Source: a virus
Length of the DNA: 64,000 nt
Reading direction: 5' to 3' (one strand)
IMG/VR virus record: IMGVR_UViG_3300031616_000001
Location: 1 to 64,000 of that record
Shown one piece after another: positions 3,163 to 55,214 of the stretch. The position numbers and the translations under genes are program-made. Under the pieces are notes generated by a model. The model ran no database searches. It was not told the origin of the DNA and saw only the letters and a program-made list of their open reading frames with translations. Within the stretch, counting starts at the first letter, position 1, and each line of letters opens with the position of its first letter.

Positions 3163-4175
3163 GCTTCGCGCTCGGCTGGTACTACGGCAATCCGAGGCCG
3201 AAGTTCGAACCACCGGACGATCTCGGCAACTCCGCTAACTTTTCACCGTCGAACTCTGGGGCCCCCGGAGAGATCGACACGAGCCTCGCTGACTTCTATG
3301 CGGGCGTCGCCGACGTGACGACAGAGACGGTCGTGTGGAGTACGGAGTGGGTGCCTGTTGTTGCCGACCCAGCGCCGTTCATCAACTACCCGCTCGGAGA
3401 GAACGCAGGACCGATCCGCATTCACACGGGTCCCGATGACGACAACTACACCCTGTTCATCGGAACACTGAACTTGACGGCGACGGTGGACGGTGTTCCG
3501 CTGGATGGCCACTTGCGGATCGTGATGGCCGAGGGCGGCTCATACGGGAACTTCGCTTGGGACTTCGTCTCAGGAACCGGCGGCGGGTCGGGCAGCCCAT
3601 GCCTTCCGGAACTGCTGGCGCCAGCCGGAACTCCGGTGTTTCTGGAGAACGGGCATGCGCAGCAGCTGCGCTCGGTGTACCGCGATGTCGCGATGGGAAC
3701 CGGTCACATGCGGCGGATCCGGACGCGCACGATCGCGCCACGGACCGTGGCGGTTTCGTGGTTCGTCGATGCCAACAAGGTCCAGGCGATCGAAGCCTGG
3801 CACGAAGGCTCCTTGCGAGTTGGTGTCGAGCCATTCGCAGCGCGCATCGCGCGTATCGGCGGACGTGGTCTCACGTGGTGGCGGGCGACGTGGGTCGGGC
3901 CGCTGGTCTATACGCCGCTCAACTCCAAGCACTGGCGAGTCAACGGCGATCTCTTTCTGAGTTGCGGTGGCGGCCTCGAAGGTCCAGTGAGTACGAGCGC
4001 GCGAGTCGAGTTCGAAGTGGCGCTGCGCGCTACGGCGAGCGCGGTCATAACGGCATACGCGGCCGTCGAGTTCGTTGCCGAACTCAAGCAACAGTTCGTC
4101 GGCCCGACCTTGCGTGGGACGTCCTCCGGCGAACTCCGAACCACTACCAGCGGGGAGACCCGCATCACGCGGTGA
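3159..4175 (+). CDS. minor tail protein
   Basis: 338 residues, starting in an ATGA overlap with the previous gene. No catalytic motif or signal peptide. The protein is beta-rich with many Trp, Gly and Thr. The region around residues 165-300 (SVYRDVAMGTGHMRRIRTRT, then AIEAWHEGSLRVGVEPFA) has the same pattern as the 131-residue protein two genes downstream: a helix with Trp, a 'GxxxF' turn, and a strand pair ending in an 'E(V/L)xxR'-like end. The two probably share a tail domain. Position between tape measure and the DUF1833/NlpC genes matches the minor tail block of lambda-like phages. Exact structural role not identifiable. Confidence 0.7.
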   Translation: MSFALGWYYGNPRPKFEPPDDLGNSANFSPSNSGAPGEIDTSLADFYAGVADVTTETVVWSTEWVPVVADPAPFINYPLGENAGPIRIHTGPDDDNYTLFIGTLNLTATVDGVPLDGHLRIVMAEGGSYGNFAWDFVSGTGGGSGSPCLPELLAPAGTPVFLENGHAQQLRSVYRDVAMGTGHMRRIRTRTIAPRTVAVSWFVDANKVQAIEAWHEGSLRVGVEPFAARIARIGGRGLTWWRATWVGPLVYTPLNSKHWRVNGDLFLSCGGGLEGPVSTSARVEFEVALRATASAVITAYAAVEFVAELKQQFVGPTLRGTSSGELRTTTSGETRITR

Positions 4176-4182
4176 GCATCAC

Positions 4183-4740
4183 ATGAGCTTGACGATTGGA
4201 GATCTCACGCCGGCGGCACTGCCGCTCGCGCGTAGCACGCTCTTCGAGATTGAAATTCCGGGGTCGCCAGGTGGGTCTGCCCGAGTGCCGCTTGCGCCCG
4301 GCATCTTCCCGGATCCGGATGGCGAGGAAGGCAAATCGCTTGTCGTCGACGAGAACGGCGATTTCGCATGGGAGTTCCAGCCCTTCTCCGAGCGGATTCC
4401 GCTGTCGGATCTGACGACATCCCTGACCGCGGGAACCTCCGTCGGCTACTGGCGGCCGCCGTTCGACGCTGTCGATGTCAAGGTCCGCGCATCGCTGCTC
4501 GTCGCGTCATCTGGTGGCGACGTCGTAGTCGACATGAACAAGAACGGCGCCACGATGCTCAACGCGAAGCTGGCGGTTCACCAGGGTGACGTGTCCAGCG
4601 TGTCTGGATCGCCGACGTCGCCGTCGTACCTGCTGACCACGTGGAACGAAGACGATCTGATCGCCTTCGACATCGACTCCGCCGGCACCGGCGCCAAAGG
4701 CCTCATCGTCACCGTCACCGGCAAGCGGGCGTCCCTGTGA
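4183..4740 (+). CDS. tail-associated protein of unknown function
   Basis: 185 residues. The ATG at 4183 is chosen over upstream in-frame starts because it follows the preceding stop by 7 bp and gives a methionine-led protein without antisense-like sequence. No motif recognised. Pro/Gly-rich N-terminal half, then a compact beta-rich half (residues 85-185) with SLLVASSGGDVVVDMNKNGA and a Thr/Val-rich end, which looks like a structural jelly-roll or Ig-like module. In the tail operon; likely virion component. Confidence 0.6.
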   Translation: MSLTIGDLTPAALPLARSTLFEIEIPGSPGGSARVPLAPGIFPDPDGEEGKSLVVDENGDFAWEFQPFSERIPLSDLTTSLTAGTSVGYWRPPFDAVDVKVRASLLVASSGGDVVVDMNKNGATMLNAKLAVHQGDVSSVSGSPTSPSYLLTTWNEDDLIAFDIDSAGTGAKGLIVTVTGKRASL

Positions 4741-16976: not shown

Positions 16977-17169
16977 TTCACACGTTTCTCACATGCGGTC
17001 CCGCGGCTCCACGTGGAACACAGGGGCAAAGCGACGAAGTTGGATTCGGGGTTCGAAACCCTCACCGCCCACCATCAAATTGCCCCGCCTTACCGGGCGT
17101 CAGACGCAAAACAGCCGTCAGCGACCCGTCCCAAACCCGGCTACGAATTCACATCTTTCTCACATGCGA
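16977..17169 (+). repeat. direct repeats flanking the attP core (arm-type integrase sites)
   Basis: Two 22-bp copies, at 16977-16998 and 17148-17169, share TTCACA, TTTCTCACATGCG and differ at only a few positions. The right copy lies in the last codons of the integrase gene. They bracket the tRNA-like core at distances of 43 and 73 bp, as expected for P and P' arm binding sites. Confidence 0.6.
17042..17074 (+). other. putative attP core resembling a tRNA 3' end
   Basis: A T-arm-like block (GGGGTTCGAAACCCT), a 7-nt acceptor-like strand, a discriminator A and CCA follow in order, with no 5' half of a tRNA upstream. Phages that integrate into tRNA genes carry such a fragment as attP core. It lies beside the integrase gene and inside a pair of direct repeats. 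Host tRNA isotype cannot be told. Confidence 0.6.
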
Positions 17170-18337
17170 CCGTAGTCCAGAGCCGAGATCCTCCGTATCG
17201 CCGGGCCGGCCGGTCGAATCCGAGCTTCTCGCCTTCGCTGATCCAGCGCCCGTACGTGCGGGTCACCATCTCGATGTTCTTGTGGCCCAGCAGGTTCGAG
17301 ATGTGGGCCGGGTTCTCGCCCTGGCTCAGCAGGTTCGAAGCAAATGTGTGCCGCAGCTGGTACGGGCTCCGGTACGCGATTCCCGTGCCCTTGTGCGCCT
17401 TTCGCCAGACCTCGGCCAGGCGCCTGTCGTCCCAAGCGCCGTCGTCGCGCGTGCCACGCGGGTTCACTGAGACGCGGTCGCCGGCGAGCAGCGTGTGCGC
17501 GCGCAAGAGATCGATGGCCTCGCGCGCCGCCGGCAGCAGAAGGATCGTGCGCACGCCCGCCGGGGTCTTCGGCCGCGCCTTGTCTTCGCCCGCTGTCGTC
17601 GTCTCCTGGATGTGGATGGTGCTCGCCTCGAGGTCGACGCGCGTCCATCGCAGGCCGATCAGCTCGCCGGTTCGCAGGCCGGTATAGGCCCACAGTTGGA
17701 AGGCGAAGCGCTCGGGCTCGGCGACGTTGGAAAGAAGCTTGACCACCTCCGACTCGCCATAGGGCTGCGCGTCGTAGCCCGTCGACCGCTGTGCCACGGG
17801 GAGCAAGGGCGCGATCTTCAGGCCGAGCAGCGGGTTGCCTTTGATGATCTCGTCGCCGACGGCCTCGTTCAGGACGGCGCGCAGCGGCAGCAACAGGTTG
17901 TTGATCCGCTTCAGGCTGCAGGTCTGCTTGTTGACCCAATCGCGGATGTCGCTTCGCTTCAGTTCGGTGATGCGCTTGTGGCCGAAGGCTGGCACCAGGA
18001 CATTGTCGATCGCCGTCTTGGTCCCGGCGAACGTCGACGGCTCGAACGTCCGCTTGACGCGGTCACGGTAGGCCTCGAGCAAGTCCTTGAGCAGCGCCGT
18101 CTTGCCGACGCCGTGCCCGAAGACGGCGGCGCGCTTTGACATCGGGAATTCCCTGGCGTAGTCGAACTGGGTCTTTTCGATCATCGTGAGGATTGCCGCG
18201 CGCCGGCGCTCGCACCACGCTTCGTTCGCCTTGCTGTGCTCGAGGTCGACCACCTCGCGGCACTGCACGCCCATGAAGCTGAAGGCGATCTGGTAGATCT
18301 GCTTCGTCTTGCGCGTGATCGGCGTGACTCCAATCAC
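17141..18337 (-). CDS. int: tyrosine recombinase (phage integrase)
   Basis: 398 residues from a GTG that overlaps the excisionase stop (GTGA). N-terminal arm-binding DUF3596-like domain: RKTKQIYQIAFSFMGVQCRE and QFDYAREFPMSKRA (about 10-70). Core-binding SAM-like domain about 90-185. Catalytic domain from about 210 with Arg in AYTGLRTGELIGLRW, YQLRHTFASNLLSQG giving the H-x-x-R pair, LLGHKNIEMVTRTYGRW giving the second His and the Tyr nucleophile. All catalytic residues are visible. It catalyses integration and, with the neighbouring Xis, excision. The start was chosen for the coupling and because translation upstream of it is shadow sequence of xis. Confidence 0.93.
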   Translation of the reverse strand: MIGVTPITRKTKQIYQIAFSFMGVQCREVVDLEHSKANEAWCERRRAAILTMIEKTQFDYAREFPMSKRAAVFGHGVGKTALLKDLLEAYRDRVKRTFEPSTFAGTKTAIDNVLVPAFGHKRITELKRSDIRDWVNKQTCSLKRINNLLLPLRAVLNEAVGDEIIKGNPLLGLKIAPLLPVAQRSTGYDAQPYGESEVVKLLSNVAEPERFAFQLWAYTGLRTGELIGLRWTRVDLEASTIHIQETTTAGEDKARPKTPAGVRTILLLPAAREAIDLLRAHTLLAGDRVSVNPRGTRDDGAWDDRRLAEVWRKAHKGTGIAYRSPYQLRHTFASNLLSQGENPAHISNLLGHKNIEMVTRTYGRWISEGEKLGFDRPARRYGGSRLWTTVACEKDVNS

Positions 18338-18543
18338 TTTCCGTTTCCGTGCTGGAGCGTTGGCTTTACCCCCGCCGCCCAGTCGTCCACCGCTCGTTCG
18401 TTGATCCATAGATCCTTGGCGCCTTCCGGCTTTCTGGCATGCACGCCCTTCAACCAGTACCCGCGGCGGAGACGCGAGTCGACGGCCTCGGCCGTCTCGC
18501 CGGTGCGTCGCAGGTACTCTGGCAAAGGGACCCAATCAGCCAT
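18334..18543 (-). CDS. xis: excisionase (recombination directionality factor)
   Basis: 69 residues: MADWVPLPEYLRRTGETAEA, then RLRRGYWLKGVHARKPEGAK and LWINERAVDDWAAG. This is the winged-helix Exc/Xis pattern, with an aromatic N-terminus, a basic recognition wing 'GYWLKG' and a closing Trp helix. Such small proteins bend attL/attR DNA and push the integrase toward excision. Translationally coupled to int. An operator-like site lies 20 bp upstream of its start. Confidence 0.8.
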   Translation of the reverse strand: MADWVPLPEYLRRTGETAEAVDSRLRRGYWLKGVHARKPEGAKDLWINERAVDDWAAGVKPTLQHGNGK

Positions 18544-39565: not shown

Positions 39566-39799
39566 TCAAAGGTCTTGGTCGCGAGCGACGCGCATGCTCT
39601 GCCGATCGCGAGCCACGTCAGCCGCGCAATCCCTGTAGAGCAACTCGCTGCACGGCTTCGGATTCATGTTCTCGTAGCACCAGCACAGGTACTGCGGGTC
39701 CTTCTCGCCGATCTGTGATGGTGTGAGGCCGGGATACTTCCGGCTGCGCGCCATCGGCGCGTGGTCGAGGTCTTCGGCGACTGTCATTTCTAGTTCCAT
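39566..39799 (-). CDS. small ExoX-C-like protein
   Basis: 77 residues from the ATG at 39799 (TGATG junction; a TTG one codon earlier is possible). SRKYPGLTPSQIGEKDPQYL then CWCYENMNPKPCSELLYRDC resembles the small 'GKxKGxxxxEIxxxDPxYLxW' domain found at the C-terminus of ExoX-like and other phage proteins. Adjacent to recombination genes. Function not known. Confidence 0.5.
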   Translation of the reverse strand: MELEMTVAEDLDHAPMARSRKYPGLTPSQIGEKDPQYLCWCYENMNPKPCSELLYRDCAADVARDRQSMRVARDQDL

Positions 39800-40284
39800 C
39801 AAGAGGTAGGGATCTCGCGCTGCAGGCTGACCTGCTGCTTTGGCTTTGGCGGCTCGATCTCTTTCATCATGGCGGAAGCCTGTGAGAGAACGGCTGCACC
39901 AAGACGCATGACGTGCAACTGCTTGCTCTGCTCAATTTGCGTGAGCGTCTCGGCACGTACCATCGTCACACGCCGGATGCTCTTGCCTTGCTTGCGCGTG
40001 CCCTGCTTGAATCCCTTGATGTTCGTGTCCAGTCGCTCGACGCCAGTGAGCGCGCGAAAGCCGATCGTCGGAATTGCCGCGATCTCGATGTTGTGGCTGT
40101 TCAACATCTCTTTTCGCCAGGCGAGCGTGACGCACCGATAGCGGTTCGACTTCGGACTGAGCCCGATCACCGCCTCGATCTGCTCGTGCGTGAAGTCGGT
40201 GCCTTCTGCGATCTCTGGGAACGCAGTGCGCAGCTTCTTGACATCAGGGGCTGTTGGAACGCCCCCAAGAAACAACTTGCTCAT
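39799..40284 (-). CDS. hypothetical protein
   Basis: 161 residues; ATG at 40284 chosen for the SD AAAGGA upstream. Begins MSKLFLGGVPTAPDVKKLRT, then EIAEGTDFTHEQIEAVIGL and a basic segment KGFKQGTRKQGKSIRRVTMV. A conserved phage family by look, likely nucleic-acid binding; no named domain. Confidence 0.55.
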   Translation of the reverse strand: MSKLFLGGVPTAPDVKKLRTAFPEIAEGTDFTHEQIEAVIGLSPKSNRYRCVTLAWRKEMLNSHNIEIAAIPTIGFRALTGVERLDTNIKGFKQGTRKQGKSIRRVTMVRAETLTQIEQSKQLHVMRLGAAVLSQASAMMKEIEPPKPKQQVSLQREIPTS

Positions 40285-40300: not shown

Positions 40301-40361
40301 TATGCGCGTAGCGCCCGTGCCCCGGCTTGCTCTGCAACGCCCGGCCACGCCTTGCCAGACC
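40301..40361 (-). repeat. degenerate fourth pentamer module
   Basis: A hairpin-forming TATGCGCGTA is followed by GCGCCC and pentamers of the form NNGCC or close to it: GTGCC, CCGGC, TTGCT, CTGCA, ACGCC, CGGCC, ACGCC, TTGCC, AGACC. The start matches the first full module (palindrome around TGCGC, then GCGCCC). It lies downstream of the 220-residue gene, in a 91-bp non-coding gap. Confidence 0.6.
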
Positions 40362-40375
40362 ACAACAAGACGGGA

Positions 40376-41038
40376 TTAGATCTCTTGAACCTCTGCGGTG
40401 AACATCCCGAACGAGCCCGGCGTCGTGCTGCCAGGTCGCCAATCGCAGAGCCCCTTATATTCGCCGGAGAAGCTCACGATCTCCTGGAGAACTCGCTTAG
40501 TGATCTGCTTGTCCCAGACGCTGATCGTTCCGGTCGCTGACCATCGATCGAAGCGGGGACGAACGCGAATGTGTTTGCTCTTGCCGATCTTGGCGCGCTT
40601 CACGAACAGGCTGAAGCCCATCGCAGCACATGCCACCTTGTGCTCGGCGAAATCTTGGACCTTCATCAGGTCTGCAATCGGCGCCCATAGCAGCGGCTGA
40701 CCGTCGATCAGAAGCGGCCAGTGCATGTCATCGACACGCATGCCACTCTGGGTCTGAGCTTTGAAAGTCTTGTTGCCGCGTCCGCCTGGCACGGGGACCA
40801 TGGCGCCGCCTTCCATCAGGCACCGCATCAGGTTGTCGACCGGAACAGTCACGAACTGTTCATCCTGGTAGCAGCTGCCGAGCCAACGCCACGCCGGTGT
40901 TCTGTCATCGCCAGCCTTGCTCGACTTTTGATTGGCGGCATCATCCTTCCATGCCGACATCCTGTCCGCCCAGTCGATATCATCAGAGTGCATCAGTAGC
41001 GGCGTCTTGCCTGTGATGGTCACTGAGAATTTCTTCAT
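40376..41038 (-). CDS. conserved phage protein flanked by pentamer modules
   Basis: 220 residues. KKFSVTITGKTPLLMHSDDI, DDRTPAWRWLGSCYQDEQFV, RCLMEGGAMVPVPGGRGNKT, and a C-terminal GLCDWRPGSTTPGSFGMF. Near-identical blocks are known to me from other phages, often near recombination genes, without function. The beta start 'xxxTITGxTPLLMH' and the Gly-rich 'GxFGxF' end recall RAMP-type RNA-binding folds, but that is a guess. The gene is the first one downstream of the 123-nt repeat modules and shares their direction. Confidence 0.65.
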   Translation of the reverse strand: MKKFSVTITGKTPLLMHSDDIDWADRMSAWKDDAANQKSSKAGDDRTPAWRWLGSCYQDEQFVTVPVDNLMRCLMEGGAMVPVPGGRGNKTFKAQTQSGMRVDDMHWPLLIDGQPLLWAPIADLMKVQDFAEHKVACAAMGFSLFVKRAKIGKSKHIRVRPRFDRWSATGTISVWDKQITKRVLQEIVSFSGEYKGLCDWRPGSTTPGSFGMFTAEVQEI

Positions 41039-41058
41039 CGCTTCCTCCTAGAGTTGAT

Positions 41059-41155
41059 CAATGCGCATTGCGCCCTTGCCACACCACACCTTGCCCGGCC
41101 GTGCCCAGCCCGGGCGAGCCATGCCAAGCCTTGGCTGGAGTGGTGCATTCGCACC
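41059..41155 (-). repeat. pentamer module 1 (hairpin - 14 pentamers - hairpin)
   Basis: Starts with the perfect palindrome CAATGCGCATTG, then 14 pentamers in phase from 41071 (CGCCC TTGCC ACACC ACACC and on, mostly NNGCC), then hairpin GGTGC-ATTC-GCACC. On the transcribed minus strand the run reads (GGCNN)n. A 26-nt spacer follows before module 2. Confidence 0.8.
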
Positions 41156-41181
41156 GGCAACCATCGCACGCGACGGAAGCC

Positions 41182-41278
41182 GCTGTGAACAGCCCTTGCC
41201 AAGCCTGACCGCGCCGCGCCCCGCCGTGCCGAGGCTTGCCATGCCATGTCAGGCCACGCCGCGCTAGTGCAACCGCAC
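41182..41278 (-). repeat. pentamer module 2
   Basis: Hairpin GCTGT-GA-ACAGC, then 14 pentamers in phase from 41196 (TTGCC AAGCC TGACC GCGCC and on), then hairpin GTGC-AACC-GCAC. Starts exactly 123 nt after module 1. The 26-nt spacer after it has the same length as the first one and shares positions with it on the minus strand (GCGG.TTC...CCGGTGCG..TGCAC). Confidence 0.8.
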
Positions 41279-41304
41279 CGGGATAACGGCAGAACCGCCA
41301 ACCC

Positions 41305-41382
41305 GCTGCGTTCGCAGCCCCTGCCAGGCCGAGCCGTGCCTTGCACTGCCACGGCGTGCCATGCCGCGCCACACCGAGTGGC
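41305..41382 (-). repeat. pentamer module 3
   Basis: Hairpin GCTGC-GTTC-GCAGC, then 11-12 pentamers (CTGCC AGGCC GAGCC GTGCC and on), then hairpin GCCAC-ACCGA-GTGGC. Starts exactly 123 nt after module 2 and ends 14 bp before the NinB-like stop codon. Shorter by about two pentamers. Confidence 0.75.
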
Positions 41383-41396
41383 ATCATGGAAGTAGT

Positions 41397-41945
41397 TCAA
41401 TGCGGGCTCCTGTGACGCGGCTTGGCCATATACCGAGCGCCTTCGCGCTCGCTCGGCTCGAACTCGAATGTCACGCCGTACTGCACGATCGCGTCGTCGA
41501 TGATCTGATCGGTCCAGATCGCGTACTTCTTCGGGCCCAGCGATTCGCTCGAGACATAGACCTTGTGCGGCGTGCGCTTCTTCGCCACGCGCCGCACGCC
41601 GGTCTTCTTGTCGACCACCTCGCCGCGGCGCATTTCCCAATGGAAGAGAAAGCGTTCGTTGTAGACGAGCTTCCACTGGTCGACGGGCCAGAGTTCAGTT
41701 TTTCCGGTCAGCTGACCCTTGCTGTCGAAGAGCGGAATGCGCACCTGATCGCTGATCTGCTTCAGCACGGCGCCGTGCAGAAACTTGCGCTGCTTGATCG
41801 TGATCGGATCCAGCGCCGGGCCCACCCGCAGCTCTACCTGTTCGCCGTTGTCGAGGAGGCATCGCGCATGAGTCATCGCAGCAATGAACTTCTCACGCGC
41901 TCCGGCTTCGGTCGCGATCACCACGAGGTAGATCTCGTCGTTCAT
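41397..41945 (-). CDS. NinB-like recombination protein
   Basis: 182 residues. VELRVGPALDPITIKQRKFL, HGAVLKQISDQVRIP and WPVDQWKLVYNERFLFHWEM follow the NinB (Orf) family, which in lambda binds ssDNA and replaces RecFOR functions. A tail EFEPSEREGARYMAKPRHRS is basic. Placed with Ref-like, exonuclease and RecT genes, which supports the call. Confidence 0.75.
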   Translation of the reverse strand: MNDEIYLVVIATEAGAREKFIAAMTHARCLLDNGEQVELRVGPALDPITIKQRKFLHGAVLKQISDQVRIPLFDSKGQLTGKTELWPVDQWKLVYNERFLFHWEMRRGEVVDKKTGVRRVAKKRTPHKVYVSSESLGPKKYAIWTDQIIDDAIVQYGVTFEFEPSEREGARYMAKPRHRSPH

Positions 41946-42235
41946 TCGGCCAGCCTCCGCAGCACGTCGGCCAGCAGATCGAACTCACTGCCGACACCCA
42001 AGGCAAGCATGAGCGGTGGCTTTGCCAGATGCACGGACGCGCGCGTCCCGTTGTGATGCATCTCGCACAGCGGAATGGTGAGGAAGTCGTCGCGCGCAAT
42101 CCGGCCCTCGCGGATGTGGTGTACCTGTGCCCCCGCGTGGCCGTAGCCGAGGCGATGGCAAACGATGCATCCGATTTCAGCGACGCGACCCATGTGGCGC
42201 GAGGCTGCGGCGGTGGCGGCGATCTTGCGGCGCAT
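41942..42235 (-). CDS. Ref-like HNH nuclease
   Basis: 97 residues. HMGRVAEIGCIVCHRLGYGH, AQVHHIREGRIARDDFLTIP and LCEMHHNGTRA give the C-x2-C...HH...H set of phage P1 Ref-type RecA-dependent nucleases. Ref cleaves DNA in RecA filament D-loops. Short length fits. Beside NinB and YqaJ. Confidence 0.75.
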   Translation of the reverse strand: MRRKIAATAAASRHMGRVAEIGCIVCHRLGYGHAGAQVHHIREGRIARDDFLTIPLCEMHHNGTRASVHLAKPPLMLALGVGSEFDLLADVLRRLAE

Positions 42236-42236
42236 C

Positions 42237-43136
42237 TCAGGCCTCTACGCCGAACTTCTTCGCCGCGGCGATGCGCAGTGCGGCGCGATCGTCTTCAGGC
42301 ATGTGAGCGATGCCATCGAGCAGCAGGTCGACCTCGGCCTGGTTGCGGGCCGTCGTGATGCGCTTGAAGAGGCGTTCGAACTCCGTGGGCTTCACGGCGG
42401 ACGGCGCGAACGCTGCGCGAACCGTAAGCGGCGCCGGCAGCGTGCGCCTTGCGATCTTCTGCAGCTTGGCGGGCATGTCTTCGACGGCCGCGAAGGGCGC
42501 GCGCAGGATGCGCTCGTACTCGTCGACCATGGCCTTGAACTCCATGAGATCGCTCTCGAGCTTTTCGATGAAGTCGTCGTCGCGGTAGATCCGCTTGCGC
42601 CAGAGTTGCTTGCCGGCTGGCGCCAGGGCAGGGCAGTACAGGCAGAAGTCCATCCACTGCCGACGGCTGATCCACAGGCCGCCCTGCACTTGATCGATGA
42701 CCATTGACGTGTCGCCGGTCGTCCAGATCTTGCGAAGCTTCAGCGGTGCCAGGAAGCACTTGTACTCAGCAGATCCATCGTCTTCGATGACACCGTCGAG
42801 GCTGCCGCCGAAGACCTCGTCGTCGGTCATGATGAAGCCGACGCGCTGCACGAACAGACCGATGTCGATCTCGTGCTCGTGCCGCGCGTCAGGCTCGAGC
42901 TCATGCCCGCGAGTCATGTACCACGTCTCGTAGTTCTCATCGAGCGGCTCGCCGCTGATGCGCTCGATGGCAATGCGGAACGCTTCGTCCTTGGCATCGC
43001 TGCTGTACTCACCGGCTTCATCACCACGCTTCAGCCGGGCGGACTCGCGCATCAGATGGAAGTTGGAGCACGTCAGCTTGCCGACGCGCGCCTGCTTCCA
43101 TGGCTTGCTGCCCTGCTCGCAGAGAACTTCTTTCAC
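42237..43136 (-). CDS. YqaJ-type phage exonuclease
   Basis: 299 residues. QGSKPWKQARVGKLTCSNFH at the start is the YqaJ/lambda-Exo beginning; GGSLDGVIEDDGSAEYKCFL carries the Asp and the Glu-x-Lys of the catalytic site; VQGGLWISRRQWMDFCLYCP gives the Gln motif. These 5'-3' exonucleases produce ssDNA for the annealing protein encoded immediately upstream. ATGA coupling with recT. Confidence 0.88.
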   Translation of the reverse strand: MKEVLCEQGSKPWKQARVGKLTCSNFHLMRESARLKRGDEAGEYSSDAKDEAFRIAIERISGEPLDENYETWYMTRGHELEPDARHEHEIDIGLFVQRVGFIMTDDEVFGGSLDGVIEDDGSAEYKCFLAPLKLRKIWTTGDTSMVIDQVQGGLWISRRQWMDFCLYCPALAPAGKQLWRKRIYRDDDFIEKLESDLMEFKAMVDEYERILRAPFAAVEDMPAKLQKIARRTLPAPLTVRAAFAPSAVKPTEFERLFKRITTARNQAEVDLLLDGIAHMPEDDRAALRIAAAKKFGVEA

Positions 43137-44296
43137 TTGGCCGCGCCCTTGCCTTCAGCCGCCTTGATGTCGCGCACGAAGTCGTCGTCGACTTCGCCTG
43201 TGCCGGGATCGGCGGCCTGCGCAGCCGTCTGAGGCGGCGGTGCATCGGCGGTGGTAGCGGCGGCCGGCGCAGGTGCGGACGCCGGAGCGTTGTCGACGGT
43301 GCGCTCGCGGTCGACGGCGACGGCCTTGTCCTTCAGGCGCTGGTGCTCACCGGCGAGCAGCCGGCGATTCTCTTGGCCGGTGCCGGCGAAGAACTTCTGA
43401 TAGGCGGCGACGCCCTTGTCAGCAGCGGTCTCGGCTGCCTTCAGGAGCGCATCGGGAATCTTCGGTCCGACGTCGTCGACCGGGCCCATGTCGCGCGGCG
43501 CGTTCATCTCCTGCAGGTCGTCGACCGTGTGCACGCCGAGCATGCACTGCGGCGCGTACATGCGCTGCCAGAGCTTCTGCGCGAGATAGAAGATCTGCTG
43601 CTGCGGGTTGGTCGTCCACAGCGTCGAGTTGCGCGTCAGCGCCTGCGCCATCAGCACCTCGAGGTACCGCGGCTCCTTCTCACCGGTGAGCGTCGTCCAC
43701 ACCTTGATGCCGAGGCCGACCTCGTCGGCGGGCTTCCAACCGGGCACCTTGTACTTCGCCGGATGGCCGTGATCGTCCTGCTTCTTCTTGCTCTCGCGCT
43801 CTTCGAAGCGGCCGTTGATCTTCGTCCAGTCGCCGAAGTATTCGATGTGCAGCGCCTCCTTGATGGCGCCCATGTTCTTCATCACGGCGCCGATGACCTG
43901 CGACTCGTAGCCGAGCTTGCCATTGATCATGTGCGTCTTCTCCGCGAGGCCGTAGAAGTCCAGGCCCCATCGGTCGGCGCGCATGGCGATCGCCGTGCAG
44001 TCGGCGGCGTTGCCCTTCAGGTGTGCCGGCAGCGTGGCATTGCCCTTCGACACGAACGAGCCGAAGTCCATGTAGGCCTTCATGGCGGCGGCGTTCGTGA
44101 TCTGCGAGAGGCCGAGGCTGGAGTTCTCGGTCATCGCGACGAGCGCCTGCTCGACGCGGGCCATCAGCCGCACGCCATCCGCGGTTGTCGCCAGCTCCGT
44201 CGACGAGCGCAGGTCGCGCAGCAGTTCGGGGATGCCGCCGGCGCTCGGCGCGATGGTCGCGGTGCTGATCTCGGTGCTCGTGTCTTGCGTCGTCAT
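43133..44296 (-). CDS. RecT-family single-strand annealing protein
   Basis: 387 residues from the ATG at 44296. Core: AIAMRADRWGLDFYGLAEKT, HMINGKLGYESQVIGAVMKN, then YLEVLMAQALTRNSTLWTTN and PQQQIFYLAQKLWQRMYAPQ. This is the RecT family signature. The C-terminal 90 residues are Ala/Pro-rich and acidic, typical of a disordered tail. It anneals complementary ssDNA made by the YqaJ exonuclease. Confidence 0.9.
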   Translation of the reverse strand: MTTQDTSTEISTATIAPSAGGIPELLRDLRSSTELATTADGVRLMARVEQALVAMTENSSLGLSQITNAAAMKAYMDFGSFVSKGNATLPAHLKGNAADCTAIAMRADRWGLDFYGLAEKTHMINGKLGYESQVIGAVMKNMGAIKEALHIEYFGDWTKINGRFEERESKKKQDDHGHPAKYKVPGWKPADEVGLGIKVWTTLTGEKEPRYLEVLMAQALTRNSTLWTTNPQQQIFYLAQKLWQRMYAPQCMLGVHTVDDLQEMNAPRDMGPVDDVGPKIPDALLKAAETAADKGVAAYQKFFAGTGQENRRLLAGEHQRLKDKAVAVDRERTVDNAPASAPAPAAATTADAPPPQTAAQAADPGTGEVDDDFVRDIKAAEGKGAAK

Positions 44297-44327
44297 GTCG
44301 GTCTTTCTTCGGCGTTCGCCGTGGTGG

Positions 44328-44573
44328 TCAGATCTTCTCGAGGAGGGCGAGCTCGACGCGCAGCTCGGCCGCGCGCTTCTCGTGGTGCTTGATGCGCTGC
44401 GGCAGACCATCGAATTCGGCCTTGAGGTGCGCGGTGTCGGACTCGGCGCTGGCGATCAGCTTGCGCACGTAGATGGCCTTGAACCAGGCGACGGTCTTCG
44501 CGGCGCCGAGACGGATCAGGTCGCCGGCGACGAGGTGCGGCGCCGAGCGCGTTGGGGTCAAGACGGCGCTCAT
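44328..44573 (-). CDS. helical hypothetical protein
   Basis: 81 residues. GDLIRLGAAKTVAWFKAIYV then AHLKAEFDGLPQRIKHHEKR and a coiled-coil end (ELRVELALLEKI). Overlaps the upstream gene by 4 bp; next to recT. No family recognised. Confidence 0.5.
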   Translation of the reverse strand: MSAVLTPTRSAPHLVAGDLIRLGAAKTVAWFKAIYVRKLIASAESDTAHLKAEFDGLPQRIKHHEKRAAELRVELALLEKI

Positions 44574-47644: not shown

Positions 47645-48127
47645 ATGAAGTACAGGTGGCAATACGACGCCGCATCGGCGACGGCAGAATTTCACGACGG
47701 CCTGTGTGTCGTCGACCTCCGCGGCCTCATGACGGCGGACGCGATCAGCGAGCTATCAGCGGACATTCAAAAGCACATGGTGACGCCGACGTATGTCGTC
47801 GTGTGCTGCTGGGACAAATCCGTGTTGGCGGTGGAGGTTGGCGACGGCGACAAACCCGGTGAAAACCCGATACGCGTGCCGGTCGTCAACGTCGTCAGCT
47901 CGGGAGAGCGCGACGCGTTCGAACGGCACGCCGACAACATGATCCGCTATGGCTTGCTGCGGATCACGACCTTGTCTTTGGACGCCGCTTTGGGCTGGGC
48001 GGCGCGGAAGGCGGTCGTCTCCGAGTGGAGCCAAGAGCTCCGCTTAACCGGACAGTTGCTCGCGCCGGTTTCACCAGCGCGGGCACGGGTCCGATCTCCA
48101 GGTCGGCGACACACCGCTCGACTTTAA
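47645..48127 (+). CDS. hypothetical protein overlapping the repressor tail
   Basis: 160 residues from the ATG at 47645, with SD AAGGA. An upstream in-frame ATG at 47501 overlaps the previous gene and is less likely. Alpha/beta: MKYRWQYDAASATAEFHDGL, IQKHMVTPTYVVVCCWDKSV, then a helical part. The last ~55 codons run antisense through the repressor gene. Likely lysogen-expressed. Family unknown. Confidence 0.5.
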   Translation: MKYRWQYDAASATAEFHDGLCVVDLRGLMTADAISELSADIQKHMVTPTYVVVCCWDKSVLAVEVGDGDKPGENPIRVPVVNVVSSGERDAFERHADNMIRYGLLRITTLSLDAALGWAARKAVVSEWSQELRLTGQLLAPVSPARARVRSPGRRHTARL

Positions 48128-48482
48128 GCCTGGCTTCGTCGCTGGGCAGGTTGTCGTAGGCCCACGCGATGTTCAGCGCTTCCGGTGTGTACGCGCGCCG
48201 CTGAAAATCCTCGCGGGTCGGCCCGGGGATCGACGGCAGGTGCATGCGGGATTCCTTTCGGGCATTGATCTTCGCGATGATGTCTTCGACGTCGAGTAGC
48301 AGGATCTCCTCGGTCGTCGTACGAAGGATCGCCGCGACCTTGGCCAGGTTCTCCTTTTCGATCGTGCTGAAGCGGAACCAGTTGGACACGGCGCCGCCCG
48401 AGACCTCCAGGCGATTCGCCACGTCTATGTTCCGCAAGCCAAAGTGTTTGAAGAGTGACTTGAGCTTCGGGCCGATGTCCAT
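47964..48482 (-). CDS. CI-like repressor without peptidase domain
   Basis: 172 residues. N-terminal HTH at about 15-45: HFGLRNIDVANRLEVSGGAV then SNWFRFSTIEKENLAKVAAI. This is the XRE/CI fold. The C-terminal half is helical, then Pro/Arg-rich (RRRPPSAPPSPKRRPKTRS); no Ser/Lys of a LexA/CI autocleavage domain. Faces the Cro-like gene across 70 bp holding two operators. Most likely the immunity repressor; how it is induced is unclear. Confidence 0.75.
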   Translation of the reverse strand: MDIGPKLKSLFKHFGLRNIDVANRLEVSGGAVSNWFRFSTIEKENLAKVAAILRTTTEEILLLDVEDIIAKINARKESRMHLPSIPGPTREDFQRRAYTPEALNIAWAYDNLPSDEARLKVERCVADLEIGPVPALVKPARATVRLSGALGSTRRRPPSAPPSPKRRPKTRS

Positions 48483-48504
48483 CTCGGAATTCTTGCAGAC
48501 GCGT

Positions 48505-48520
48505 GCTAAGCAATGCTTGC
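48505..48520. promoter_or_regulatory. operator 1 between repressor and cro
   Basis: GCTAAGCAATGCTTGC, core AGCAATGCT at 48509-48517. Centre to centre with operator 2 is 23 bp, about two helical turns, as in lambda OR. Confidence 0.7.
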
Positions 48521-48545
48521 GCTTGAAACTTTGTAATGCTAAAGT
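48517..48545 (+). promoter_or_regulatory. rightward promoter (pR-like) before cro
   Basis: TTGCGC, 17-bp spacer, TAAAGT. The predicted start falls about at 48552, one base before the cro ATG, and no SD is visible, so the cro message may be leaderless. Confidence 0.5.
48529..48543. promoter_or_regulatory. operator 2 between repressor and cro
   Basis: CTTTGTAATGCTAAA overlaps the spacer and -10 of the rightward promoter. Identical over 14 bases to the site at 35941. Confidence 0.7.
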
Positions 48546-48552
48546 CTCTGTG

Positions 48553-48894
48553 ATGGACTTGAACACTTGGTGCAACGCGGAATCCGGCAGAGCCTCGCGC
48601 CTGCAGGAATACTTGACTTCGGTATTGCGCACGTCAGACCCCGGCAAGGAGATCGCCGACGCGCAGTTCTGGCAGTGGCGTCGCGAGGACGGCGATCCGC
48701 GCAAGCGCCCCATCCCGGCAACCATGGCCCTCGCGATTGAGGAATTCACGAAGGGCGAGGTCATGCGCTGGGAAAGCCGGCCGAAGGACTGGTTCCTGTA
48801 CTGGCCCGAGCTGAAGAAATACAGCGGCGCGCCACCACTGCCGACGGTGAGTCCGGCGACGGCTGACGAAGCCGCGGCGCTCTCGAAGACCTGA
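48553..48894 (+). CDS. YdaS/Cro-like regulator
   Basis: 113 residues. LNTWCNAESGRASRLQEYLT, then DAQFWQWRREDGDPRKRPIP and MALAIEEFTKGEVMRWESRP. This is the YdaS/Cro pattern: an HTH whose recognition helix ends 'QWR..', followed by 'RPIP...AIE..T.G.V.RW..RP.DW'. C-terminal end is Pro/Ala-rich. Divergent from the repressor, so it plays the Cro part. Confidence 0.8.
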   Translation: MDLNTWCNAESGRASRLQEYLTSVLRTSDPGKEIADAQFWQWRREDGDPRKRPIPATMALAIEEFTKGEVMRWESRPKDWFLYWPELKKYSGAPPLPTVSPATADEAAALSKT

Positions 48895-49234
48895 TGTGGC
48901 CGGGGCGATCTGGCAAGCATTGCTTCCAGATTTCTGACTGAGCCTATTCACAAACAACCTCCGTTCCTCATTGGTGAAACCGATGTTGACAAGGATACCC
49001 GGTGACATTAGCAATGCAAAGCACTGAATTTGGGGGGTGTGCTGGGCACGCGCATTGCATCGGCCAGATCGCATCTGCGGTCAGCAGGCCGGCGGCCGAC
49101 CGGTTGCACGAGGGGAAACCCCCTTCGGAGAAGGTCGCCAGGCCGCGCCGCGCGCGCGTACGGTTTACCGATTCGCGGCTCCGCGCTGTTACAAAAAACT
49201 TTGCGTTGCTGAAGTCCATCGGCGGTGGCCGTCG
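48895..49234. other. intergenic region with promoter and two or three operator-like sites
   Basis: 340 bp between cro and the methyltransferase. Holds AGCATTGCT at 48916-48924, a TTGACA at 48986 with an operator overlapping its -10, and a weaker site CTTTGCGTTGCTGAA at 49199. The methyltransferase frame is open back to 49037 but that part is Arg/Pro-rich and not like the family. I do not see a certain gene here. Confidence 0.5.
48986..49021 (+). promoter_or_regulatory. promoter with operator before the methyltransferase operon
   Basis: Perfect -35 TTGACA, 17-bp spacer, weak -10 TAGCAA at 49009. The operator TTAGCAATGCAAAG (49008-49021) covers the -10. Confidence 0.5.
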
Positions 49235-51010
49235 ATGATCGAGCCGCAGTTCATCCTCGCGCGGGCCGCCAAACTCGTCATCGATCTGTTCGCCGGCGGC
49301 GGCGGAGCCAGCACTGGCATTGAGCAGGCCATTGGCCGCCACGTCGACATCGCGATCAATCACGACCGCGTCGCCGTCGCCCAGCACCAGGCAAACCACC
49401 CGCAGACCCGTCACCTGGTCACCGACATCTGGGAGGTGGACCCGCTCAGGACCACCGAGGGTCGGCCCGTCGGGTTGCTGTGGGCGAGTCCGGACTGCCG
49501 TCACTTCAGTCCAGCCAAGGGCGGCGCGCCGGTCAGCGATCGCGTGCGCAGCCTAGCGTGGGTGGTGATCAAGTGGGCGACGCATTGCCGGCCCGATGTG
49601 ATCTGCCTCGAGAACATCCCCGAGTTCAAGAACTGGGGGCCGGTCATCGCCGGCCGGCCGTGCCCGGACCGCAAAGGCAAGACCTTCCGCCGCTGGCGCC
49701 TGCAGCTCGCGCGTCTCGGCTACGTCGTCGAGTTCCGCGAACTCCGCGCCTGCGACTACGACACGCCGACGATCCGCAAGCGGCTCTTCATGGTGGCGCG
49801 CTGCGACGGCCTGCCGATCGTCTGGCCGGAGGCGACGAACGGCCCCGGCCTGCGGCCGTTTCGCACGGCCGCCGAGTGCATCGACTTCAGCCTGCCGTGC
49901 CCGAGCATCTTCGAGCGCAAGAAGCCGCTGGCGGCGGCGACGCAGCGGCGCATCGCGCACGGCGTGAAGCGCTACGTCATCGACAATGCGAAGCCGTTCA
50001 TCGTGCCCGTGACGCACCCGCGCGACTCGCGCGTGCACAGTGTCGACGACCCGATGCGCACCGTCACCGCGGCGCCGCGCGGCGAGTTCGCACTCGCGGC
50101 GCCGACGATCGCCCGCATCGGCCAGACCGGCGGCAATGGCAAGTACGCGAACAGCGTCGAGGAGCCGCTGTCAACCATCACCACGAAGGCCGAGCACCTG
50201 CTGGTCGCGCCGGTGATCGTTGAAGCCGCGCACGGCGATGTTTCGCCGACCGGCGTCAAGCGCTGGGGCAAGGGCCACCGCTCGATCGAGGAGCCGGTGC
50301 CGACGATCACGGCCAGCGGCGGCAACACCGCGGTGGTCGCGTCGTTCCTGGCCAAGCACTACGGTGGCCACGAGACGCCGGGCACGCCGCTCGACAAGCC
50401 GATCAGCACGATCACGACGCAGGACCATCACCACCTGGTGGCAGCGCACATCACGAAGTTCCGCACGGACAGCGACGGCGTCGCCGCCGACGTCCCGATG
50501 CCGACTGTCACCGCCAACAGCCATGTCAAGCGCCCGGGCGGCGCGCCGCCGCTTGGCCTCGTGACATCGCATCTCGCGAAGCTGCGCGGCACCAGCAACA
50601 GCGCGGCGACCGACGAGCCATTGCACACCATCAGCGCCGGCGGCTGGCATCACGCCGAAGTCCGCGCCTTCCTGGCGGCGTACTACGGCACCGACCAGGA
50701 TCCGCGGCTCGAGGAGCCGTTGCATACGCTGACGACACGCGACCGTTTCGGCCTCGTCACCGTCAGCGGTATCGACTACGTCATCGTCGACATCGGCATG
50801 CGCATGCTCCAACCTCGCGAGTTGTACCTGGCGCAGGGTTTCGCGCCCGACTACATCATCGACTGGGGCATCGACCCGAAGACCGGTGACCGCATCACGC
50901 TGACAAAGACCGCGCAGGTTCGCCTGGTCGGCAATAGCGTCTGCCCGCCGCTGGCGCGCGCCATCGTCGCCGCGAACTACTCCGACGTCGAGATGCGGAG
51001 GGCGGCTTGA
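49235..51010 (+). CDS. C5-cytosine DNA methyltransferase with repeat-rich insert
   Basis: 591 residues from ATG 49235. Motif I VIDLFAGGGGASTGIEQA (about 14-31), catalytic Cys in WASPDCRHFSPAKGG (about 87), motif VI ENIPEF (about 125), motif IX-like MRMLQPRELYLAQGF and motif X VGNSVCPPLARAI near the end. Between VI/VIII and IX lie seven repeats of the type (D/E)xPxxT(I/V)(T/S)xxxxx at about 271, 308, 351, 387, 419, 459 and 493 (for example VEEPLSTITTKAEH). The insert occupies the target recognition region. Probably protects phage DNA from restriction. Upstream in-frame starts add an unlikely Arg/Pro-rich leader. Confidence 0.88.
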   Translation: MIEPQFILARAAKLVIDLFAGGGGASTGIEQAIGRHVDIAINHDRVAVAQHQANHPQTRHLVTDIWEVDPLRTTEGRPVGLLWASPDCRHFSPAKGGAPVSDRVRSLAWVVIKWATHCRPDVICLENIPEFKNWGPVIAGRPCPDRKGKTFRRWRLQLARLGYVVEFRELRACDYDTPTIRKRLFMVARCDGLPIVWPEATNGPGLRPFRTAAECIDFSLPCPSIFERKKPLAAATQRRIAHGVKRYVIDNAKPFIVPVTHPRDSRVHSVDDPMRTVTAAPRGEFALAAPTIARIGQTGGNGKYANSVEEPLSTITTKAEHLLVAPVIVEAAHGDVSPTGVKRWGKGHRSIEEPVPTITASGGNTAVVASFLAKHYGGHETPGTPLDKPISTITTQDHHHLVAAHITKFRTDSDGVAADVPMPTVTANSHVKRPGGAPPLGLVTSHLAKLRGTSNSAATDEPLHTISAGGWHHAEVRAFLAAYYGTDQDPRLEEPLHTLTTRDRFGLVTVSGIDYVIVDIGMRMLQPRELYLAQGFAPDYIIDWGIDPKTGDRITLTKTAQVRLVGNSVCPPLARAIVAANYSDVEMRRAA

Positions 51011-51940: not shown

Positions 51941-52599
51941 TCGATGCCTGCTCGTGGGACGCGCCAGGCCGGGACCGCTATACGGGGTCGGTGCCGGCGG
52001 CCATCATTGCCTTCGGCCTGCCGCTGGCCACCCAATCCAAGCTGATCGCGGCCTTCGAAGCCCGCGAGTTCGTCGACGCCGTCGTCATCGACCGCGATGC
52101 CATCCGCGGCCGCACCTTCGACTATGCACCGGAGATCTCCGCGATGCACTTCGGCAGCCGCGGGCGGATCTGCGGGACGGTGACGCGCACCGGCTGGAGC
52201 GCTGAGCACGTCGAGACGGCGCTGGTGCTGTGCGCCGACGGCGAGTGCATCGCCTGGCCGGCGGTGTGCGGCAACGTCTTCAGGCTCGCGCGGCGCGAGC
52301 GCGCCGAGAAGCTCGCCGGGCCGCCGGCCGCGGTCCCCGAGACGCCGGGCGATGCCGTGGCCCCGCCCGAGCCGCCTCCTGTTCTCACGCTGACGTCGGC
52401 GCCCGTGCCGCTGGCTGGGCCCGCATATCCGCCGTCGGGCTACGGCGGCCCGCCGGACATCTTCTTTGGGCCGTGCTGCGCGACGCCAGGGGCTCCCGGG
52501 CTTCCGCCGATCACTCCGGCCATCCCGGAGCCGTCGACCTGGGCGCTGTTGATCGCCGGCGGCGCGGCGTTCCTCCTGGCGAGGAGACGGCGGGCGTGA
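51937..52599 (+). CDS. MHFG-type PEP-CTERM protein
   Basis: 220 residues from a GTG overlapping the previous stop. The N-terminal domain has DACSWDAPGRDRYTGSVPAA and ISAMHFGSRGRICGTVTRTG, the features of the phage 'MHFG' family. A Pro/Gly-rich middle leads to a C-terminal IPEPSTWALLIAGGAAFLLA then RRRRA: the PEP motif, hydrophobic helix and basic end of exosortase substrates. No ordinary N-terminal signal peptide. That combination is known to me only from a few phages. Suggests a host with exosortase EpsH. Confidence 0.75.
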   Translation: MIDACSWDAPGRDRYTGSVPAAIIAFGLPLATQSKLIAAFEAREFVDAVVIDRDAIRGRTFDYAPEISAMHFGSRGRICGTVTRTGWSAEHVETALVLCADGECIAWPAVCGNVFRLARRERAEKLAGPPAAVPETPGDAVAPPEPPPVLTLTSAPVPLAGPAYPPSGYGGPPDIFFGPCCATPGAPGLPPITPAIPEPSTWALLIAGGAAFLLARRRRA

Positions 52600-55214
52600 A
52601 ATCGTACGAGCAGTTCCTTCGCGACAAGGTGCGCCTCGCCCCTGATGAGGGGTTCGACGTTGCCCTGGACGAGGTGAATCCGCTGCTGAAGATGCACCAG
52701 CGCCTTATGGTGGTCTGGGCAATCCGCGGCGGGCGGCGCGCGATCTTCGCGGCCTTCGGTCTCGGCAAGAGCGTCATCCAACTCGAGATCGTCCGCCTGA
52801 TCCTTGCGCGCATCACCGGCCTCGGCCTGATTGTGATCCCGCTGGGCGTCCTGCAGGAGTTCAAGCGCGACGCCGCCATGCTCGGCATCGTCGTCAAATT
52901 CATCCGCGACATCGAAGACGCGCACGGCGCCGACATCTACCTGACGAACTACGAGACCGTCCGCGACGGCAAACTCGACCCGCAGCGGTTCGCCGTGGCC
53001 AGCCTGGATGAGGCCGCCGTCCTGCGCGGCTTCGGCGGCACCAAGACATTCCGCGAGTTCATGCGCACGTTCGCCGGCGACGGCAAGACGTTGAACGACA
53101 GGACGATCACGGACGGCGTGCGGTATCGCTTCGTGGCGACGGCGTGCCCGAGCCCGAACGAGTACATCGAGTTGCTGGCGTACGCCGCCTACCTCGGCAT
53201 CATGGACGTGTCGGCGGCGAAGACCAGGTTCTTCAAGCGCGACAGCACGAAGGCCGACAAGCTGACGCTGCACGCGCACAAGGAGCGCGAGTTCTGGTTG
53301 TGGGTGTCGTCGTGGGCGATCTTCGTTCAGAAGCCGAGCGACCTCGGCTGCTCGGACGACGGCTACGAACTACCGCCAATGGACGTGCGCTGGCACGAGG
53401 TGGCCAGCGACGTCGCCACCATCGGCCACGAGCCCTGGGGCCAGGCCAAGATGTTCGTCAGCGCCGCCATTGGCGTCGTCGACGCCAGCCGCGAGAAGCG
53501 CGAGAGTCTGCCGCTTCGCATGGCCAAGATGATGGAACTGCGCGCGGAGGATCCGCATGCCCATCGCATCCTCTGGCACGACCTCGAGCGCGAGCGCGAC
53601 GCCATCGAGCGCGCCATCCCGACGGCGGTCAGCGTCTACGGTTCGCAGGACCTGGATGAACGCGAGCAGGCCGTCGTGGACTTCAGCGACGGCCGGTTCC
53701 AGGAGCTCGCCGCGAAGCCCGTGATCGCCGGCAGCGGCTGCAACTTTCAGCGGCACTGCAGCTGGGCAATCTTCCTCGGCATCGGCTTCAAGTTCAGCGA
53801 TTTCATCCAGGCGATTCACCGTATCCAGCGTTTCCTGCAGACGCGGCCGGTGCGCATCGACCTGATCTACACGGAAGCCGAGCGCGAGGTTCGCAGGCAG
53901 CTCGAGCGCAAATGGGAGCAGCACACCATCATGGTCGCCAAGATGACCGAGATCATTCGGGAGTTCGGACTCTCACAGGCCGCGATGGCGCAGTCGCTGA
54001 CGCGCGCCATGAACGTGGAACGCGTGGAAACCGCTGGTCGCAGCTACAAGCTCGTGAACAACGACAGCGTCGACGAGACGCGTCGCATGGCTACCGACAG
54101 CGTCGACCTGATCCTCACGTCGATTCCGTTCTCTTCGCAATACGAATACTCGCCGAGCTACCGCGACCTCGGTCACAGCGACAACAACAAGCACTTCTTC
54201 GAGCACATGGACTTCATCACGCCGAACCTGCTGCGCGTGCTGAAGCCCGGCCGCATCGCGGCGATCCACGTGAAGGATCGCATCGTGCCCAAGGGCATGA
54301 CCGGCCTCGGCTTTCAGACGGCCTACCGATTCCACAGCAAGGTTGCCGACCACTACGAGAAGCACGGCTTCGCCTACCTCGGCATGAAGACGATCGTCAC
54401 CGACGTCGTGCGCGAGAACAACCAGACCTATCGCCTGGGTTGGACGGAGCAGTGCAAGGACGGCACGAAGATGGGCGTCGGCATGCCCGAGTACCTGCTG
54501 CTGTTCCGCAAGCCCGTGACGGACACCGCCGACGGCTACGCCGATACGCCGGTGGTCAAAGCCAAGCCGCTGTGCCTCGACGGCGACGACGACGTGCCGT
54601 TTGACCGCGATCTTCCGATCAAGCCGAACAGCGGCTACTCGCGATCGCGGTGGCAGATCGATGCCCACGGCTTCACGCGGTCATCGGGTGACGGTCTGCT
54701 GCTGCCAGAGGACCTGGCCGGCATGACGCACGCCGAGATGTTCCAGCTGTTCAAACGGCGATCGCTCGAGACCGTCTACAACTTCGAGAACCACGTGCGA
54801 CTCTGCGAGCACCTCGAAGCCGCCGGCAAGCTGCCGGTGACCTTCATGTTGCTGCAGCCGCAGAGCTGGAGCGATGAGGTGTGGACCGACATCACGCGGA
54901 TGCTCACGCTCAACGGCGCGCAGTCCGCGAAGGGCAAGGAGATGCATCTTTGCCCGATGCAGTTCGATCTCGCCGATCGCGCGATCGAGCAATGGTCCAT
55001 GCCTGGCGAGGTGGTGTTCGATCCATTCGCCGGCCTCGGAACCGTCCCGTACCGCGCCGTCCAGAAGGGCCGCTTCGGCCTGGGCTGCGAACTGAGCCCG
55101 TCGTACTACCTCGACAGCCACACCTACTGCCGCGCGGCCGAGCTCGAGCTGAGCATGCCGAGCCTCTTCGATGCCGAAGAGATCGGCGAGACAGCCGACT
55201 CTGCCGCGTCTTGA
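52596..55214 (+). CDS. helicase-DNA methyltransferase fusion
   Basis: 872 residues from a GTG overlapping the PEP-CTERM stop. Residues about 1-480: SF2-like helicase, Walker A variant AAFGLGKSVIQLE (55-59 GLGKS), DEAA in place of DEAD/H near 150, and a motif VI-like QAIHRIQRFLQTRPV near 415. Residues about 500-860: N6/N4 beta-class methyltransferase with LILTSIPFSSQYEYS (motif IV; Pro-Pro replaced by Ile-Pro) at about 509 and FDPFAGLGTVPYRAVQKGRF (motif I, after motif IV) at about 808, ending GLGCELSPSYY. Such fusions modify DNA and are seen in phage anti-restriction proteins (DarB-like idea, inference). Helicase motifs partly degenerate. Confidence 0.8.
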   Translation: MKSYEQFLRDKVRLAPDEGFDVALDEVNPLLKMHQRLMVVWAIRGGRRAIFAAFGLGKSVIQLEIVRLILARITGLGLIVIPLGVLQEFKRDAAMLGIVVKFIRDIEDAHGADIYLTNYETVRDGKLDPQRFAVASLDEAAVLRGFGGTKTFREFMRTFAGDGKTLNDRTITDGVRYRFVATACPSPNEYIELLAYAAYLGIMDVSAAKTRFFKRDSTKADKLTLHAHKEREFWLWVSSWAIFVQKPSDLGCSDDGYELPPMDVRWHEVASDVATIGHEPWGQAKMFVSAAIGVVDASREKRESLPLRMAKMMELRAEDPHAHRILWHDLERERDAIERAIPTAVSVYGSQDLDEREQAVVDFSDGRFQELAAKPVIAGSGCNFQRHCSWAIFLGIGFKFSDFIQAIHRIQRFLQTRPVRIDLIYTEAEREVRRQLERKWEQHTIMVAKMTEIIREFGLSQAAMAQSLTRAMNVERVETAGRSYKLVNNDSVDETRRMATDSVDLILTSIPFSSQYEYSPSYRDLGHSDNNKHFFEHMDFITPNLLRVLKPGRIAAIHVKDRIVPKGMTGLGFQTAYRFHSKVADHYEKHGFAYLGMKTIVTDVVRENNQTYRLGWTEQCKDGTKMGVGMPEYLLLFRKPVTDTADGYADTPVVKAKPLCLDGDDDVPFDRDLPIKPNSGYSRSRWQIDAHGFTRSSGDGLLLPEDLAGMTHAEMFQLFKRRSLETVYNFENHVRLCEHLEAAGKLPVTFMLLQPQSWSDEVWTDITRMLTLNGAQSAKGKEMHLCPMQFDLADRAIEQWSMPGEVVFDPFAGLGTVPYRAVQKGRFGLGCELSPSYYLDSHTYCRAAELELSMPSLFDAEEIGETADSAAS

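Follow-up and report, generated by a model that had tools for sequence, protein, structure and literature searches.

Phased GGY/NN repeats in a temperate phage very probably form the guide arrays of a type II VIPR locus

What could a gap filled with phased pentamers be doing inside a phage operon? The gap in question (41039-41396, 358 nt) lies in the window, the stretch of 64,000 nucleotides analysed here (positions 1 to 64,000 of the IMG/VR viral record IMGVR_UViG_3300031616_000001). A sequence-only reading had described it as three 123-nt modules at 41059-41382, each with 11-15 strictly phased pentamers between hairpins. The sequence is as described, and all the palindromes and hairpins named there are present. 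The gap is home to three GCC-phased arrays on the plus strand (Table 1; the array starting at 41323 ends at 41370 or 41375). The GCC pentamers are indeed in phase, but each array has 11-13 units, of which 1-2 per module are off consensus. The 123-nt spacing holds for the palindrome starts only: the array starts are 120 and 125 nt apart, relatives vary (121/102/112 in L130), and the period is not conserved. When the 358-nt gap was shuffled 2,000 times with its dinucleotides preserved, no array scored above 5.0, compared with observed scores of 8.0, 10.0 and 9.2, and the sum for three arrays reached at most 9.0, compared with 27.2. A degenerate fourth module between vipr and vap (40319-40361) was absent from the earlier coordinates. 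A search of the whole 118-kb record with three mismatches allowed found no array beyond these four.

Table 1. Coordinates of the candidate vrRNAs and their neighbouring genes in the window (NN dinucleotides 5′ to 3′)
Feature	Position	Strand	Details
vrRNA-a repeat tract	41323..41375	-	11 units, transcribed first; NN: GT GC AT AC GT AG AA AC TC CT AG
vrRNA-a 3′ tail	41266..41322	-	HP1 41305-41318, HP2 41280-41304, HP3 41266-41279; HP2 covariation
vrRNA-b repeat tract	41198..41260	-	13 units; NN: GT CT AT AT AA TC AC GG GC GC CA TT AA
vrRNA-b 3′ tail	41142..41197	-	HP1 41182-41193, HP2 41156-41181, HP3 41142-41155; HP2 covariation
vrRNA-c repeat tract	41078..41130	-	11 units; NN: TT AT TC CG TG AC CG AA GT GT AA
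vrRNA-c short tail	41063..41073	-	HP1 only (GCGC-loop-GCGC), then AGGAGG ribosome site and vipr ATG
vipr	40376..41038	-	phrog_4652 family; single-domain RAMP/Cas7-like protein, predicted guide-RNA binding, 220 aa
vrRNA-d repeat tract	40319..40361	-	degenerate, ~9 units, in the vipr-vap gap; NN: CT AA GT CG GT AG AA GG AC
vrRNA-d HP1	40304..40314	-	GCGC-loop-GCGC, then vap leader and ATG
vap1-like accessory gene	39799..40284	-	predicted winged-helix DNA-binding protein, 161 aa

The leftward operon around the gap consists of genes for RecT (43133-44410), a YqaJ exonuclease (42237-43136) and a Ref-like HNH protein (41942-42235) and of a weak NinB/Orf match (41397-41945), and continues past the arrays with vipr and the vap1-like gene. 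Since the gap lies inside this operon, the transcript would read (GGYNN)n. On the operon (minus) strand each module is a (GGY-NN)n tract with a hairpin tail after it, and all four are in the vipr sense. RecT binds 5 nt per monomer, and the idea that the 5-nt unit is a RecT monomer footprint was dropped because RecT is rarely found near arrays. In many close relatives (L130-L145), YqaJ-type exonuclease genes are located about 140-670 nt downstream of vipr, and the locus thus keeps company with recombination genes. Elsewhere in the window there are an integrase (17141-18535), a repressor-like gene (47964-48920) and tail genes, which indicates a temperate tailed phage. Past the recombination operon, the opposite strand carries genes for a large DNA methyltransferase (49037-51010, +) and a helicase/methyltransferase-like protein (52230-55214, +), whose products possibly serve phage self-protection.

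At the RNA level the repeat tract ends in GGC-AA/AG-GGG and is followed by HP1 (GCUG..CAGC), HP2 (GGG..CCC) and HP3 (GGUG..CACC). The closing hairpin, 26-nt spacer and 5′ palindrome recognized earlier as separate parts of a module do exist, but on the RNA they are HP3, HP2 and HP1 of one tail behind the tract. Two tails in the window carry all three hairpins, and HP1 alone stands ahead of the vipr and vap start codons. In 20 clade tails, 119 of 140 HP2 pairings are formed, compared with 88.5 ± 4.5 after shuffling of the arms; none of 2,000 shuffles reached 119, a count that is not a strict probability, as the 3′ arms were dealt among related sequences. Pairs were counted in the hairpin register, since hairpins of unequal length misalign under MAFFT. 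Several pair types (GC, AU, CG, UA) occur at paired positions, and HP2 therefore covaries. Such compensatory changes bear out the proposed selection on the architecture of the operon-strand RNA. The window has the conserved structured 3′ tail that is a feature of VIPR.

VIPR (Viral Interference Programmable Repeat), a phage-borne relative of CRISPR, is described in the main text of a 2026 preprint as a system built on a phage-encoded ancestral (single-RRM) RAMP (PMC13142463). According to that text, a vrRNA consists of 9-16 tandem GGY/NN (YNNGG) units and ends in a structured 3′ tail, and one base between dinucleotides is skipped when DNA is recognized (PMC13142463). Our GGY/NN consensus was derived ahead of the comparison with this description. 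Across 385 clade modules the information at the five unit positions was 1.71, 1.74, 1.35, 0.05 and 0.01 bits, that is, GGY is conserved and NN is hypervariable. The main tolerated change was GCC to ACC (GGC to GGU on the RNA), with 406 cases versus at most 77 for any other. A GGY that recurs in phase every 5 nt next to the gene of a RAMP protein, with C-to-U tolerated, fits recognition of GGY by the protein. This is the conserved feature; the two-tier G-quadruplexes or slip-paired RNA suggested earlier are not supported. The stable, covarying hairpins and the GG that recurs at 5-nt intervals on the operon strand would also suit a structured regulatory or decoy RNA, or a DNA or RNA shape element (G-quadruplex, slipped repeats), that has no guide function. 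We consider this very unlikely, since the NN are nearly free while GGY stays fixed in its phase with C-to-U tolerated, and since the arrays are tightly linked in both directions to the RAMP gene (see below). Rfam also speaks against it, as nothing above gathering was found for the array region. The earlier statement that the element is not a known RNA holds in this respect, but the element matches the vrRNAs of the preprint (PMC13142463).

To assess the linkage from the DNA side, we examined 122 loci, namely 120 of the IMG/VR stretches matching six GCCNN units (at least 120 do), LESphi2 and the window. The Vipr family profile was seeded only by the window protein and the LESphi2 neighbour, and arrays were masked for the clustering of neighbours. 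Among the matches listed, 83 of the 122 array-bearing loci contain a member of the Vipr family, and the array has the same sense in 80 of these 83. The distance between array and vipr in the 80 same-sense loci is mostly within ~200 nt and always within ~750 nt. Many of the loci with no Vipr match contain just one short array or lie on short contigs. From the protein side, 6 genome and 80 viral loci were fetched by alignment to close-clade Vipr, with the DNA pattern unused. GGYNN arrays were found in all 86 (427 sense, 1 antisense), whereas the controls on these loci gave 0 for period 4 and 6 for period 6. A same-period CGG control gave 72, a count that probably arises from NN letters of GGY arrays creating that triplet. 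The paths from DNA pattern to protein and from protein to DNA pattern, over about 200 viral and bacterial loci, provide strong independent support for VIPR.

The relatives also bear on the coding capacity of the repeats. Long minus-strand frames, e.g. 41058-41387, are open here and similar array translations cluster across loci, as a repeat-rich short protein would require. We give this explanation almost no chance: a 5-nt repeat yields open frames by itself, the inter-array segments are hairpins, and between relatives (L130, L133) the modules vary in length by 5 or 10 nt, which breaks any frame. In agreement with the sequence-only reading, no protein is conserved in one frame.

Next to the arrays, the product of vipr matches PDB entry 36pp ('SUSP1 Vipr protein') with E=8.2e-44 for the family profile and 1.8e-9 for the window protein alone. 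It is about 27-28% identical to the Ounavirinae homologues. The AlphaFold model (pLDDT 90.9) has its best PDB matches among RAMP subunits (Cas7/Csm3) of type VII and III-A CRISPR systems, with E from 4.5e-5 and modest whole-chain TM-scores to Cas7 of 0.4-0.5. Pfam, NCBIfam and PADLOC scans of Vipr gave nothing credible, and no Cas match above chance. The downstream gene aligns with SUSP1 vap1 over 85 columns (hhalign profile probability 93.9%, E=1.5e-7), and its model weakly resembles winged-helix DNA-binding domains. Direct BLAST with SUSP1 vap1 reaches few relatives; in most close relatives a vap homologue follows immediately after vipr. The vap1-like gene next to vipr points to type II, an assignment made on gene content, i.e. 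on the vap1 alignment and the gene order. We thus regard it as very probable that the arrays are vrRNAs of a type II VIPR locus in a temperate phage, acting as Vipr-bound guides together with Vap.

The preprint demonstrates transcription, assembly of the RNP, the skip rule and repression for the VIPR of SUSP1 and P. fulva (PMC13142463), and by analogy the window locus probably works in the same way. Each minus-strand module would be a vrRNA of ~9-13 GGY-NN units followed by its hairpin tail. Vipr would coat the repeat tract and hold the GGY, presumably with one subunit per five bases, and the NN would pair with DNA under the one-base skip (target xNNxNN...). With the help of Vap, a predicted DNA-binding protein, the RNP would then keep genes of rival phages or of other mobile elements from being transcribed.

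The position of two guides suggests a further possibility. Only HP1 stands between the last unit of vrRNA-c or vrRNA-d and the ribosome site of vipr or vap, respectively, and both guides are thus located in 5′ leaders. This placement recurs: in many relatives the array ends ~30-41 nt ahead of the vipr start codon. Leader-embedded guides are not mentioned in the preprint's main text (PMC13142463). Processing or Vipr binding might switch translation of vipr and vap and so let the system set its own level, although we consider such feedback rather doubtful.

Next, we searched for targets of the guides. Exact patterns of 9-10 dinucleotides found no target in IMG/VR for vrRNA-b and vrRNA-c; phages of the host need not be in this collection. 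The sole IMG/VR match of vrRNA-a (L209) agrees at 9/9 searched dinucleotides, in codon phase. The adjoining dinucleotides fail to match on either side, so it looks like chance, and by our estimate about one such match is expected by chance. No target of vrRNA-b was found at up to 3 mismatches in 369 genomes from the class to which a bacterium with 61% Vipr identity belongs, nor was there one for two of the LESphi2 guides in an exact-pattern search. In an all-against-all guide search among loci, the one-base skip showed no excess over shuffled guides, and the zero score at skip-3 reflects each array matching itself. As the right host genomes or the host's phages are perhaps absent from the collections, these results neither support nor refute the skip rule.

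The lack of a credible target match is also what a relic would show, i.e. a VIPR locus in which the genes remain while the guides of the window have decayed and no longer work. In addition, about 8 of 44 units are not GGY (two in vrRNA-a, two in vrRNA-b, one in vrRNA-c and three in the degenerate vrRNA-d), which is above the clade average and suggests that some guides may be decaying. We nevertheless find a relic unlikely: the open frames of Vipr and Vap are intact and retain the family's invariant residues, HP1-HP3 are intact in two tails, and occasional non-GGY units are also found in relatives.

Guide content and linkers vary among related loci. In viral contigs whose Vipr is ~62% identical to that of the window (L134-L145, L165), close relatives have the vipr-adjacent vrRNA in common but differ in the guides further upstream (e.g. 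L136, L142), which suggests guide replacement over short times. The commonest linker overall is a single base between modules (GCC-T-GCC on the array strand, 102 cases), which occurs roughly every 55-75 nt in L007, L018, L044, L073, L086, L118 and L121. These modules may correspond to the 'staggered arrays' named in the preprint's main text (PMC13142463); literature on pentanucleotide repeats offered no lead. Two loci, L029 (IMGVR_UViG_2681812969_000001, minus strand, ~4280-4600) and L006 (~3780-3830, plus strand), have tRNA-like elements between vrRNA arrays, with an acceptor-like stem and a canonical T-arm (UUCGACU loop). L029 also has a short arm, and one of its linker copies has a perfect 7-bp acceptor-like stem. 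ARAGORN found no whole tRNA genes in the linkers. The tRNA-like elements are possibly RNase P/Z processing sites and possibly represent a new VIPR variant; the main text of PMC13142463 makes no mention of them.

Our results change the interpretation of the locus, from a shape element of no known type to guides of a known system that was described very recently. As a class of RNA-guided DNA recognition, VIPR is only months old and known from a preprint alone, in which it is proposed to be older than CRISPR (PMC13142463). It was reached here from raw sequence, repeat side first, and the window contributes a further case, a temperate phage whose RecT/YqaJ recombination operon contains four guides. 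Where phage genomes have unannotated (GCCNN)n gaps, these can now be read as guide arrays.

Compared with known systems, the predicted Vipr fold resembles that of class 1 CRISPR-Cas effectors (Csm3/Cas7; types III-A and VII) by AlphaFold and Foldseek. In contrast to class 1 systems, the locus has no CRISPR repeats or spacers; GGY/NN tracts are the only arrays in the gap, and their 5-nt units take the place of a contiguous spacer. Neither a class 1 CRISPR array nor a multi-gene cas operon was found; the tested neighbours are recombination genes and vap. Closer in layout is Pseudomonas phage LESphi2 (OQ594955, L001), in which three modules, alike in their tail hairpins and different in NN content, immediately precede the gene of a Vipr homologue. 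The region, 3199-4190 of OQ594955.1, is annotated as a hypothetical protein plus an unannotated gap and appears as an unannotated VIPR locus with three vrRNAs, in a phage of the epidemic P. aeruginosa strain LESB58. With the type II VIPR of Escherichia phage SUSP1 and a Pseudomonas fulva prophage, as given in the main text of the preprint (PMC13142463), the window shares the Vipr RAMP, a downstream vap1-like gene, several GGY/NN vrRNAs in intergenic gaps, the conserved structured 3′ tail and the phage origin. The guides are arranged differently, with three upstream of vipr and one between vipr and vap in the window, and one upstream and three downstream of its genes in SUSP1. Unlike the loci of SUSP1 and P. 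fulva, that of the window lies in a RecT/YqaJ/HNH/NinB operon.
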